In this document: positions 20,904 through 25,390 of the stretch, in pieces
How the letters are laid out: each line of letters opens with the position of its first letter
Position numbering within the stretch: the stretch's first letter is position 1
IMG/VR virus record: IMGVR_UViG_3300008110_000250
Coordinates: 1 to 31,469 of that record
Direction: 5' to 3' (one strand)
From: a virus
Length of the DNA stretch: 31,469 nucleotides
Notes under the pieces: model-generated
Seen by the model: the letters and a program-made list of their open reading frames with translations, nothing else
What the model was told of the DNA's origin: nothing
Databases searched by the model: none
Position numbers and translations under genes: made by a program

Positions 20904-22070
20904 TCAGATGGTGCCGTCATCTTGCACATAGCTGAACGCGGTGGTCACGAAGTCCTTGTTCAGGATTTCGAAGCCGGCGTACAGTTGCCAGATAAGGATG
21001 ATGAAACGGCTGAAGTCATCGTTGTTGTTGATGAGCACCTGAGCGTTCGGACCGCCGATACCAACGCCAATGGCTTGAGGACCGAAGAAGTAACCCTGAG
21101 CCACTTCCTTGGAAGCGTAGGTACCACCAGTACCAGCGAAGGAGGTATTGATGTTCTTGGTCGGGAAGTTGGTCGACTCGAAGAACTTAACGCCTTCAAA
21201 CTGCACACCAGTCGGCATGACGGGTTCACCAGCCAGGAAGTAGCCCTGACCAGCTTGGGGACCCATGTAGAAGCTGGCATTGTTAGGCATGCCGGGGTTG
21301 CCCATGTACATGCCCTGACCGGGGTTGCCAGCATAACGGGCAATCTCACGGAAGTCGGGGTCCCTCCGGAGGTGCATCATGAAGGTAGGATCGCAGATGC
21401 AGCGATACAGACCATCAGCGTAAGTAGGAACGTTGCGCTTGCGCAGGTCCTTAACAACGGTCAGCAGGTCAGTACGCACCTGGAACTGTTGAACTTCGTT
21501 GTCGTACTCAGTAGAGGTGTAAGCAATACGACCAGAAGAATCCTTAACTTTGCCACCAGGGAAGTAGTAACCACCTTGGGTGGTAGACGCGGCACCATTG
21601 GCTTCAGCTTTGGCGAGTTCATCAATGAACACGCGGTCGCGCCAACGACGGTAGTCATCCAGCAGCGTCAGGCTACCGATGGACTGGTGGAACATGTTCA
21701 GGTTACCGGTGTCCAGCAGCAGACGCTGGGCGGTAATCAGGGTTTCACGAGCAATCTTGAAGGTTGAGGGCTGGGTCGGATCGCCGGGGTCTGCAGGACC
21801 GGTGTATTCCTTAAGCACCACCAGGACTTTCTCCTTGGTGATGTTACGGCTGTTAGCGGTACCGATGGTTTGGTCGGCAATACGCTCACGGCTGTCCTTA
21901 GTACCAGGGGTACCCCAGAACTTGTAGCGGTCTAACTGAACGGTTTGACCGGGTTGGCGGGTGAAGTCGTGGACAACCACGGGCTCCACAGCCATCTCGG
22001 CAATATAAGCAGGGTGGGGACGGTAAAGTTCCGCACCCAAAATTTTTGGGAAATCGTTATCAAGAAACAC
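20904..22070 (-). CDS. Major capsid protein (N4-gp56-like)
   Basis: 388 residues. The start is GTG at 22070, supported by GGAGG 10 nt upstream (22081-22085). The pattern fits HK97-fold capsid proteins of the N4 gp56/P22-like type: an N-terminal AVEPVVVHDFTRQPGQTVQLDRYKFWG segment, a long helical part (RWRDRVFIDELAKAEANG), YADGLYRCICDPTFMMHLRRDPDFREIARYAG around 210-240, and GVQFEGVKFFEST near 280. It forms the icosahedral shell. It follows the scaffold-like gene and an alanine-rich gene, and is preceded by a ~100-nt leader with two inverted repeats. Codon choice is strongly C/G-ending. The family placement is from pattern memory; the capsid role is well supported by context. Confidence 0.85.
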   Translation of the reverse strand: MFLDNDFPKILGAELYRPHPAYIAEMAVEPVVVHDFTRQPGQTVQLDRYKFWGTPGTKDSRERIADQTIGTANSRNITKEKVLVVLKEYTGPADPGDPTQPSTFKIARETLITAQRLLLDTGNLNMFHQSIGSLTLLDDYRRWRDRVFIDELAKAEANGAASTTQGGYYFPGGKVKDSSGRIAYTSTEYDNEVQQFQVRTDLLTVVKDLRKRNVPTYADGLYRCICDPTFMMHLRRDPDFREIARYAGNPGQGMYMGNPGMPNNASFYMGPQAGQGYFLAGEPVMPTGVQFEGVKFFESTNFPTKNINTSFAGTGGTYASKEVAQGYFFGPQAIGVGIGGPNAQVLINNNDDFSRFIILIWQLYAGFEILNKDFVTTAFSYVQDDGTI

Positions 22071-22185: not shown

Positions 22186-22664
22186 ACGTACTGCATATTA
22201 CTGGAACCGTTCGCAGCTTCAGGGTTAATTCCTGCTTGGAAACCAGGAATGCCGATGGCGTTGTACAAATTAGAAGAGCCACCGCCCATCAATCCGCCAA
22301 GTCCAGCAGCAACCGGAATAGCTGCCGTAGCTAATGCTGTTTGATTTGCAATACCACGACGTATGTTTGCCGCAGAACCAGCAGCGTTCACTGCTTTACG
22401 TGCCATACCCGGTTGCCGCAACGAACCAAGAGCGGCGGCAGCAAAACCAGGAACTAAACCGGGGATAGCTGCAAGGGTTCCGGCATTTGCTGCTTCGTCA
22501 AGAATACGAAGAGGGCCCTCGCCTTGTTCTTTGTCTGTTAAGTTTCCAATAACAGAGCCTGTTGCACCAAGAAGACCGGCACCTAAAGCAGAAGCTCTCA
22601 AGGCGCCGGCAGGGTTCTTCGCTGCTGCGTTTAATACTTGTCCGTATTTACCAGCAACAGGCAT
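22182..22664 (-). CDS. Ala/Gly-rich hydrophobic protein
   Basis: 160 residues. Alternating Ala/Gly-rich hydrophobic segments (ALRASALGAGLLGATGSVIGNL near 22-43, AGTLAAIPGLVPGFAAAALGSL near 61-82, ATAAIPVAAGLGGLMGG near 111-127) with few charges. They may be membrane-interacting helices or glycine-zipper-like packing elements. The end is polar (ANGSSNMQYV). No family recognised. It sits between the scaffold-like gene and the capsid gene, so a minor head or ejection-type virion component is plausible. Confidence 0.68.
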   Translation of the reverse strand: MPVAGKYGQVLNAAAKNPAGALRASALGAGLLGATGSVIGNLTDKEQGEGPLRILDEAANAGTLAAIPGLVPGFAAAALGSLRQPGMARKAVNAAGSAANIRRGIANQTALATAAIPVAAGLGGLMGGGSSNLYNAIGIPGFQAGINPEAANGSSNMQYV

Positions 22665-22668
22665 GGCC

Positions 22669-23640
22669 TCACTCCATCACAAACAGTTTGTTTGCAACAG
22701 TGGCAGGCTGAGCTTGGTTCAGGACGCGCCAGGCGTTCTGGGGATCACGGTTCATGATCTCGCTGAAGTTGCCCCAGAAGTTTTCAGGTTGCTGAGGAGC
22801 AGCTGCTGCGGGAGGAGCGGGAAACTCACCAACTTGGCCATAAGCAGAAGTGGTGGGATAGCCACGGGTCTCCAGTTCTGCTTCGTTTTCGTACACGGGG
22901 TACGGACCTTCAGGACCAAAGAACTTCAGGGTGTAGTCGCTGAGTACATCGGGATTGGTAAGAATCTCGTTGTAGGCCAGGTTCTCTTGGTGCTCGTTGA
23001 CCGCAAAGTTGGCATAGCCAGCGATTAAGTTTTGAGCACGCTCGCCCCAGGCAACAGCACTATCAAGCATCCCTTCAAGTTGAAGGGCGTAGTTATTTAG
23101 TACGGCGGGTGCCTCGATTCCGAACGCGTCGATTACTTGGCGGCTTTCCTGCCCCATCCCCAGGTAATCCGCGATCTGCTCCAGTGAGGGACTGGAAGAG
23201 GTTTGGGAATAATTGGGAGAGTAATCCTGGCTGGGCGACCAAGTCTGGGGAGCCGATTGTTGCGTAGCTGGGCTGCTGACTTGTCCGTAGTTCGCCGGGG
23301 TATACTGTGTCGGCACCTGCGAGGGTGCTCCCTGGAACGGGGATTGAACTGGTGCGCTCAGAAGATTCACCACCTTGTTGAACGCCGATTCCCACGGGTT
23401 CCCCGCCTGTTCCGCCGGTTGGGATTGGGGGGCGTACTGAGTAGGGGCGGATTGGTAGCTGGGGTTCGCCTGTGGTACTGCTTGGGGGTAGCTGGTACCC
23501 ACCTGATAAGCCACTGGAGCTGCCTGGTAGCTGGCCGGTGCCGCCTGAGGTGCCGGTGCCGCCATCACGTAGCTGCTTGGGGCTACTGCTGCTGGTGCTT
23601 GGCTCGTCTGTGGGATCGATTGGACGGTAGCGTCCTGCAT
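22669..23640 (-). CDS. Scaffold-like protein, N-terminus overlapping portal gene
   Basis: 323 residues; AAAGGAG lies 9 nt upstream of the ATG at 23640. Residues 1-150 are Pro/Gln/Ala/Ser/Tyr-rich low complexity (SYQAAPVAYQVG, YAPQSQPAEQAG). From about 155 a helical, acidic part follows (SLEQIADYLGMGQESRQVIDAFG, NNYALQLEGMLDSAVAWGERAQNL), ending MNRDPQNAWRVLNQAQPATVANKLF. Position between portal and capsid and the helical acidic body fit a capsid scaffold or assembly protein. The first 548 nt are shared in another frame with the portal ORF. Codons here are C/G-ending like those of the capsid gene, and the SD is strong, so this frame is almost surely translated. Confidence 0.75.
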   Translation of the reverse strand: MQDATVQSIPQTSQAPAAVAPSSYVMAAPAPQAAPASYQAAPVAYQVGTSYPQAVPQANPSYQSAPTQYAPQSQPAEQAGNPWESAFNKVVNLLSAPVQSPFQGAPSQVPTQYTPANYGQVSSPATQQSAPQTWSPSQDYSPNYSQTSSSPSLEQIADYLGMGQESRQVIDAFGIEAPAVLNNYALQLEGMLDSAVAWGERAQNLIAGYANFAVNEHQENLAYNEILTNPDVLSDYTLKFFGPEGPYPVYENEAELETRGYPTTSAYGQVGEFPAPPAAAAPQQPENFWGNFSEIMNRDPQNAWRVLNQAQPATVANKLFVME

Positions 23641-25390
23641 AACTCATCTCCTTTTGTAAAGCTTCTAAGGTTCGATACAGATAGGGTGTCAGATCCAGAC
23701 GAGGATCAGCAGCCATCGGTAAGTCTGGTGATTGAGGGTGAGGAGTCTGCATCATCCCCCCCACCAATTTGGCGAATTGAGAATAAGCATTCTGCAATTC
23801 ATTCACCATCCTGAACGGGAACCCAGATAACATCTCGGCCCGCTCCTCATCCGTCTTAGACGGAAAGAGGTATTTCAGTGCTTCAATGCTATCAACACCT
23901 AATTCTTGTAGGTTGCGAACCACAATAGAATTATTAAGTGTGTCCTGAGTGGTTTCCTCGTACACAGGACCTGTCCAACGCCAAAGCATCGTGACATCGC
24001 CATCGGGGATTAACCCAAGAACGCCTGGCGGAATCATTTTTGTTTCCACGCAAGCCATCATAATCTCTTTGACTTGATCATTGAAGATTTTCATTGCTTC
24101 CCTGTAGGCAGCAATTTCTTCTTCTGGTGCATCAACAGGAAGATCAACTGGCTTTTCAATACCTGCTGCAGCCGCCAACGATTGACGGAAGAGTTGTTCT
24201 TCTTGATAAATAATTAACTCAAGGCAGCGGCAGATGCCATACGTGTAAATAGCATTTGCTTTTTTCTTGGATGTTGCTGATACACGACCAAATAGTGACT
24301 TGTATTCAGTTGCGGTAACACCAGCTGAAATTGACAGTTCATCCACACCGCCAAGTGCAGTGCGAATTTCTTCGCGATACTGACGGGCAAATTGATTTTG
24401 GTCACCAGTGATTGCATCTGGAACAATGTAACCAACACGGTCATTCGGCTCCAGGTTTGCAATGATCCTTGGCACTCGAATCTGTCCATCAACGCCACGA
24501 CTGACGGGATCAGCCTTGAACATCGAAGCACTCAAGGATGCAGGGCTGGTGAAGCCAGAGTTTGCTGCAATAGAAGGACGCTGTACCGTAGAATCACCAC
24601 CTGCCTCAATCAAGTCCGTCTTGGGACGAGATGACAGTAGTGTGGGGTTACCAAAGAACTGAACGTTCTTGCGCATGGTGCGAACCATTTCGTCATGCGT
24701 GACGATGTGATTGGCTAATGCATCAAACTCGCCAACACCGTCGTTAGCAAAGCCTTTGGGGTTATTGAAGATCTCAACGCAAGGAATAAAACCGAGCGTA
24801 TTTTTTAACAATTTTGTTTTACCGGAGACTGCATAGTCCGGCATGTCAAAAGATAATTCACCTTCTGCGTGAGTTTCTTTGATTTCGTCACGCTTAATCG
24901 AAAGCCTGATGTAACGCCTTGAAGCCTGACCGTCACCAAGCGTTTTGCCGGTAATATTTGTCTGTGCTATTTCGGCTCCAAAGCCACCAGGGCGACGCAC
25001 CTTGTAGCTGTAGATGATCACCACCTCTTCCAGGTCACCGTCTACGTTGTAGAACGTGCGGTACTCATGCTCGCGGAAGTAGTAGATGCGATAGTTAATT
25101 TTTGTAGGCCTAATGTAGAACAGACCTTTTCCATCACACAAGAAATAATCCCAGATTGAATCCAGGCGTGCATCAATTTGGTTGTATTTGATTACACGGT
25201 CGATAAAATCTTTGCGTTGATTTCCAAAATTGTCCTGGCTGGGGAAGAACTCAACACCCTGGCGGATGCCGAATAATTTCATCTGCGCCAAATGCGAGGC
25301 CACAACGCCCGTATCGACGACAGTGGAACTATCTTTGTCGATATAGGCAGTAATAATTTCGTTGAGCCTTGATTTAGCGTCGGCAGCCAT
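23093..25390 (-). CDS. Portal protein
   Basis: 765 residues in the open frame. Residues 1-590 read as a phage portal: VVASHLAQMKLFGIRQGVEFF, then YNQIDARLDSIWDYFLCDGKGLFYIRP and REHEYRTFYNVDGDLEEVVIIYSYK (wing/clip region), a helical core (GVGEFDALANHIVTHDEMVRTMRKNV), NQFARQYREEIRTALGGVDE with the following TATEYKSLFGRV, and MLWRWTGPVYEE. Twelve copies would form the ring through which DNA is packaged and ejected. The last ~175 residues (after SYAGRYRPIDP) are Gly/Ser/Thr/Pro-rich and lie antiphase over the start of the scaffold-like gene. The true C-terminus in the virion is therefore uncertain. The start overlaps the stop of the 48-aa gene (TAATG). Confidence 0.88.
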   Translation of the reverse strand: MAADAKSRLNEIITAYIDKDSSTVVDTGVVASHLAQMKLFGIRQGVEFFPSQDNFGNQRKDFIDRVIKYNQIDARLDSIWDYFLCDGKGLFYIRPTKINYRIYYFREHEYRTFYNVDGDLEEVVIIYSYKVRRPGGFGAEIAQTNITGKTLGDGQASRRYIRLSIKRDEIKETHAEGELSFDMPDYAVSGKTKLLKNTLGFIPCVEIFNNPKGFANDGVGEFDALANHIVTHDEMVRTMRKNVQFFGNPTLLSSRPKTDLIEAGGDSTVQRPSIAANSGFTSPASLSASMFKADPVSRGVDGQIRVPRIIANLEPNDRVGYIVPDAITGDQNQFARQYREEIRTALGGVDELSISAGVTATEYKSLFGRVSATSKKKANAIYTYGICRCLELIIYQEEQLFRQSLAAAAGIEKPVDLPVDAPEEEIAAYREAMKIFNDQVKEIMMACVETKMIPPGVLGLIPDGDVTMLWRWTGPVYEETTQDTLNNSIVVRNLQELGVDSIEALKYLFPSKTDEERAEMLSGFPFRMVNELQNAYSQFAKLVGGMMQTPHPQSPDLPMAADPRLDLTPYLYRTLEALQKEMSYAGRYRPIDPTDEPSTSSSSPKQLRDGGTGTSGGTGQLPGSSSGLSGGYQLPPSSTTGEPQLPIRPYSVRPPIPTGGTGGEPVGIGVQQGGESSERTSSIPVPGSTLAGADTVYPGELRTSQQPSYATIGSPDLVAQPGLLSQLFPNLFQSLTGADRGLPGDGAGKPPSNRRVRNRGTRRTK

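Follow-up and report, generated by a model that had tools for sequence, protein, structure and literature searches.

The window (the whole 31,469-nt stretch of DNA that was analyzed) carries its head genes, which encode putative portal, scaffold-like, and capsid proteins, on the minus strand, with a terminase gene upstream and the major capsid gene downstream of the portal/scaffold pair. The portal ORF (positions 25390–23093, 765 aa) and the scaffold-like ORF (positions 23640–22669, 323 aa) share 548 nt (positions 23093–23640, minus strand), with the scaffold frame offset by +1 and the N-terminal 182 scaffold codons lying inside the portal gene. An out-of-frame overlap of this length had been claimed in an earlier note on this DNA, and its coordinates proved exact; the portal frame, said there to stay open for about 180 codons beyond the scaffold start, does so for approximately 182. 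A 160-aa ORF (positions 22664–22182, minus strand), which begins just past the scaffold stop, and the major capsid gene (positions 22070–20904, minus strand; PHROG 1357) are mentioned as context only. Antisense to the capsid gene, an open frame of 281 aa was also observed (positions 20922–21767, plus strand); it is probably a codon-usage shadow, but no test stands behind this reading.

The window belongs to the lineage of Synechococcus phage S-EIV1 (KJ410740), with which it shares 76% DNA identity across the overlap region and amino acid identities of 79.6% for the portal protein and 75.9% for the scaffold-like protein. When 50,697 phage records were searched by tblastn with the portal, scaffold-like, and capsid proteins, S-EIV1 was the sole match each time. 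Among the matches listed from the viral-contig searches, the lowest portal identity was approximately 71%, leaving aside one broken contig (L317, 62%), and the genome-contig search matched two MAG contigs. S-EIV1 has the same overlap, 554 nt in length; in its record, however, the annotated scaffold CDS has just 134 codons (133 aa and a stop) and lies behind the portal stop, and because only these last codons are annotated, the overlap is hidden. Elsewhere in that record (KJ410740, positions 60784–62010; locus L081), the annotation shows the major capsid gene as an antisense ORF together with a C-terminal fragment; tblastn places it in one piece on the plus strand, at positions 60859–62007.

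Portal and scaffold-like proteins

The assignment of the 765-aa ORF as a portal protein is supported by family similarity and by predicted fold, and the criteria for both were met. PHROG 64 (“portal protein”) was distantly matched by 44 of the 50 aligned members at E ≤10 (best E-value, 6e−5); the window portal protein alone matched only PHROG 20475 (“virion structural protein”) among the PHROGs and had no Pfam match. Starting from a low-confidence AF2 model, all 14 PDB matches obtained with Foldseek at E ≤0.001 were portal, neck, or tail-complex entries from phages or a phage satellite, and VIA-align gave Z scores of up to 9.0 over portal residues 43–472. Sequence searches of the PDB with the portal and scaffold profiles returned nothing meaningful. 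The portals of T7, P-SCSP1u, Pan3, P22, and other podoviruses resemble the predicted protein in their fold (Foldseek and VIA-align), but they offer no counterpart of its 182-residue frame-overlapping tail in the alignments listed: none of the 50 VIA alignments listed against solved structures extends beyond residue 553, and the tail was not searched alone.

This C-terminal tail (positions 23093–23641, minus strand; approximately 182 codons in the +1 frame relative to the scaffold gene) starts directly behind the last predicted core helix (residues 568–584). Across 115 representatives, it is rich in G (18%), S (15%), and P (13%), and also in T, versus 8% L, 8% G, 7% A, and 7% E in the core, in agreement with the Gly/Ser/Thr/Pro low complexity that the earlier note had described for the portal frame. 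The tail has few K/R residues, and its stretches include QLPIRPYSVRPPIP and YATIGSADLVSQPGLLAQLFPNLL. Conserved islands (YAGRYRPIDPTDEP, QLPI-P-SVRPPIP, GIGVQQGGEP, IPVPGST, YATIGSADL--QP-LLAQLFPNLL, and a basic end) are embedded in otherwise variable sequence, and the mean identity is 0.61 in the tail versus 0.80 in the core. A disordered tail of about 175 residues had been suggested; the composition and the very-low-confidence AF2 model fit this suggestion, and the 182 residues are probably disordered, but disorder itself is unproven. Neither the disorder nor the position of the tail could be shown structurally, because both AF2 models are poor (pLDDT of 41 for the portal protein and a mean of only 46 for the scaffold-like protein).

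The scaffold-like gene lies between the portal and major capsid genes, which meets the gene-order criterion for a scaffolding protein, and its model contains predicted helices at residues 177–228 and 288–319 and an N-terminus without structure. No significant PHROG, Pfam, or PDB match was found for the protein; scaffolds diverge fast. Its identity as a scaffold is inferred from the gene position and the helical/disordered make-up, with no family match for or against it. Its composition is alike inside (15% A, 14% S, 13% P, and 13% Q) and outside (12% A, 10% P, and 9% Q) the overlap, and its mean identity is 0.70 inside versus 0.76 outside.

The scaffold start lies within the signature TACAAAAGGAGATGAGTTATGCAG (positions 23635–23658, minus strand), which is nearly invariant among relatives. 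A Shine-Dalgarno (SD) sequence, AAAGGAG (positions 23654–23648), sits 7 nt upstream of an ATG that begins at position 23640, and the strong SD and start codon attributed to this frame are thus both present. Its preference for C/G-ending codons, also claimed, holds only mildly, with a GC3 of 0.64 in the overlap versus 0.57 in the remainder of the gene. Two conserved nucleotide stretches were noted farther upstream. The 29-nt element GGTGTTGATAGCATTGAAGCACTGAAATA (positions 23871–23899, minus strand), located in the portal core approximately 230–260 nt upstream of the scaffold start, has reduced synonymous variation around codons 497–507 and occurs as a single copy in the window. A simple scan found no sigma-70-like promoter at this element, which is possibly a phage promoter or an RNA element for the scaffold/capsid genes, but its role is unknown. 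The second stretch, TATCTGTATCG (positions 23673–23683, minus strand), immediately precedes the scaffold SD, spanning about −43 to −33 relative to the scaffold start, and codons 570–572 are nearly frozen there.

Persistence of the overlap among relatives

When the synonymous scaffold codons of the window were shuffled, the portal frame stayed open in 3.6% of 5,000 trials if the codons were those of the overlap itself, and in 0.02% if codon usage was taken from the non-overlapping portal and scaffold codons. Over seven loci, the corresponding ranges were 0.5–9.7% and 0–0.12%, with S-EIV1 at 9.7% for its own codons. In other words, the open portal frame of one sequence is unlikely as a chance event but not absurd; because the shuffles leave the frame open in some trials, a single sequence is only suggestive, and the relatives decide.

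The first set of relatives comprised 242 sequences, the window included, of which 203 show a portal stop before the contig end and 39 end too early for one. In every one of these 203 loci, the scaffold gene starts in the +1 frame, and the overlap measures 506–644 nt in 202. The exception (L099, with the same contig end as L365) reaches a portal-frame stop after 185 nt of overlap; as the contig ends only 10 nt away, this stop could reflect either an error or true variation. Of 309 sequences collected later, 260 had both a portal stop and the start signature, after 49 had been dropped because they lacked a portal stop in the contig, lacked the signature, or had a match starting too late in the portal; 244 of the 260 also contain a scaffold stop, 158 of them are unique, and 115 representatives share <97% identity in the overlap. 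When distinct sequences were counted among the fetched loci, with at least 665 nt required behind the scaffold start, the portal frame was open for at least 497 nt in 212 of 213. The single exception, L317, has several frameshifts that break both the portal and scaffold genes, and looks more like the product of sequencing error than of natural variation. When the start signature served as the only search criterion, which entails no selection for an open tail, 98 of the 99 loci with enough sequence had an overlap of at least 497 nt; many of these loci are contigs already counted. Across the relatives, which reach down to approximately 71% portal identity, the overlap ranges from 497 to 662 nt, and no relative outside the lineage without the overlap was found by tblastn of the 50,697 phage records, among the viral-contig matches listed, or in the genome contigs. 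Relatives with portal-frame stops soon after position 23640 had been named as a refutation, and the 202 of 203 and 212 of 213 sequences that keep the overlap do not bear it out.

None of the 115 representatives has a stop in the portal or the scaffold frame within the overlap, whereas all of them have stops in the third forward frame, and the three antisense frames are stop-free in 0, 0, and 7. A general openness of all frames was ruled out in this way, the other four frames of the overlap not being kept open. Immediately beyond the portal stop, the portal frame contains 6.7 stops per 100 codons; the figure for the +1 frame within the portal core is 4.5.

Purifying selection on both reading frames

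Four-class substitution counts were obtained from 300 of 1,546 eligible pairs. In the overlap, the rates were 0.113 for dNN, 0.385 for dNS (portal-changing, scaffold-silent), and 0.176 for dSN (portal-silent, scaffold-changing); the silent rates in the single-coding controls were 1.148 for the scaffold beyond the portal stop and 1.366 for the portal core. The dNN/dSN ratio, which reflects selection on the portal frame, was 0.64 (0.52–0.76) in the overlap versus 1.21 (0.92–1.65) in the single-coding scaffold, and the scaffold dNN/dNS ratio in the overlap was 0.29 (0.24–0.35). Fourfold-site divergence, measured on 57 disjoint pairs, was 0.199 inside versus 0.358 outside the overlap for the scaffold frame (lower inside in 55 of 57 pairs) and 0.432 in the core versus 0.081 in the tail for the portal frame (lower in the tail in 57 of 57 pairs). 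In 10-codon bins, the scaffold-synonymous divergence rises abruptly at the portal stop, from 0.17 before it to 0.40 after it.

Scaffold-silent changes were also sorted by their effect on the portal frame. Among transitions in the overlap, portal-conservative changes occurred at 722 of 6,361 sites (0.114), radical changes at 159 of 3,146 (0.051), and stop-making changes at 2 of 617 (0.003); the transversion values were 0.087, 0.037, and 0.002, respectively. Past the portal stop, the same classes gave 0.116, 0.197, and 0.310 for transitions and 0.082, 0.080, and 0.219 for transversions. Relative to conservative changes, portal-stop-making changes are therefore approximately 40 times rarer and radical changes approximately 2 times rarer in the overlap, and neither bias is seen beyond the portal stop. 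As far as sequence comparison can establish it, these patterns show that both frames are under purifying selection as protein; the portal frame must be selected as protein because an RNA or DNA element would not obey its genetic code. Both criteria examined for a same-strand out-of-frame overlapping pair, namely, long ORFs that share DNA and purifying selection in both frames, are met. Judged by dNN/dSN, the last third of the tail shows weaker selection on the portal frame: the three thirds gave 0.60, 0.48, and 0.92, the last with an interval of 0.61–1.44.

The earlier note had left two readings side by side, one with both frames translated and one with an accidental extension of the portal frame, and had proposed a codon-substitution analysis. 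In the accidental reading, only the scaffold frame would function within positions 23093–23640, and the codon and amino acid composition of the scaffold would hold the portal frame open, for which the own-codon shuffles that stay open in the window and in S-EIV1 leave some room. This reading is contradicted by the open frame in all but one of the 213 distinct relatives, by the rarity of stop-making changes (0.2–0.3%, versus 9–11% for conservative ones), which does not extend beyond the portal stop, and by the jump in scaffold-synonymous divergence at that stop. With the frames of the relatives open, the other frames closed, and stop-making changes depleted only inside the overlap, we rejected accidental openness as virtually untenable. 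A constraint arising from an RNA or DNA element (a structure, promoter, or packaging site) instead of portal-frame translation is very improbable: non-coding-looking constraint does exist nearby, in the SD/start signature and the 29-nt element of the portal core, but the reduction covers the whole overlap, ends at portal stops that differ in place among phages, and follows the portal genetic code, as the radical and conservative transition rates illustrate. By extent, end point, and code-following pattern, a nucleotide element was rejected as the cause of the overlap-wide constraint. Conservation and substitution patterns thus favor the reading in which both frames code, and we hold with high confidence that this is a true long out-of-frame overlap, a putative dual-coding head-gene pair, in the absence of peptide, ribosome-profiling, or genetic evidence.

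Origin, possible roles, and significance of the portal tail

For dual coding, one ribosome would read the portal ORF to position 23093, adding a flexible 182-residue tail behind the last core helix, and a second ribosome would enter at the strong SD/ATG inside the portal gene (positions 23654–23638) and start the scaffold-like protein in the +1 frame. Separate initiation is inferred from the internal SD, and a frameshift would be unnecessary. Each portal subunit might then carry a flexible arm facing the lumen, with short motifs inferred to bind scaffold, capsid, or DNA. The C-termini of known podovirus portals lie at the crown end, facing the capsid lumen, and the same position is inferred for the tail for this reason. 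We propose only tentatively, as somewhat short of probable, that the tail lies there on the portal ring and that it helps the scaffold and capsid subunits to assemble on the portal or touches DNA through its basic end.

The scaffold frame is inferred to be the older of the two, and it is reasonably likely that the portal gained its tail by stop-codon loss, because the end of the predicted core coincides with the scaffold start, the A/P/Q-rich scaffold composition continues beyond the overlap, and the G/S/P composition of the tail is unlike that of the portal core. Codon usage in the 115 representatives does not polarize the overprint, since neither overlapping frame resembles the core (mean r of 0.08 for the tail and −0.03 for the overlapping scaffold). 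The converse, in which two proteins are likewise made but the tail of the portal came first and the N-terminal half of the scaffold is the overprinted newcomer, appears improbable. In its favor, the tail comes slightly nearer to the portal core in codon usage than the overlapping scaffold part does (in 89 of 115, although with the low mean r given above). Against it, the scaffold keeps its composition on either side of the portal stop, the composition of the portal changes at the scaffold start, and the listed alignments to solved portals reach only to about residue 553.

Overlapping genes are a known kind of arrangement, of which the phage spanin and microvirus overlaps are classical cases. 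The Rz/Rz1 spanin genes of lambda-like phages encode co-acting proteins in different frames of one DNA stretch; the likeness lies in a tailed dsDNA phage, two co-acting proteins, and an inner gene with its own start, but these are lysis genes with a much shorter overlap, whereas in the S-EIV1 lineage two head genes share 497–662 nt. In lambda, the Nu3 scaffold also starts inside another head gene, C, but there is no dual coding because Nu3 shares the frame of C. The out-of-frame overlaps of phiX174 likewise have both frames functional, but in a small ssDNA genome, whereas the genome of the S-EIV1 isolate is 79 kb. Work on microvirus overlapping genes appears in the reference list of PMC8227390. 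No portal/scaffold out-of-frame overlap was named among the titles listed from an open-access library, which is limited evidence of novelty, subscription papers being mostly outside the search. On this weak evidence, a conserved out-of-frame overlap of such length between two head genes of tailed dsDNA phages is apparently unreported.

The usual explanation for long out-of-frame overlaps is that small viral genomes are limited in size; in this case, a lineage of tailed dsDNA phages with a 79-kb isolate genome has kept approximately 500–660 shared nt between head genes across approximately 29% portal divergence. In the one deposited isolate that was found, less than half of the scaffold gene is annotated. 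The pair provides a natural test of the constraints that dual coding places on structural proteins with a possible interaction, and it shows where portal tails can come from. It is possible, although rather unlikely, that the tail was overprinted on the scaffold gene and that its partner is the protein of the other frame, making the tail a portal-to-scaffold recruiting arm. Were this true, the arm and its binder would co-evolve only through mutations hitting both at once, and the recruiting arm would fix portal-vertex nucleation in a widespread cyanophage lineage.
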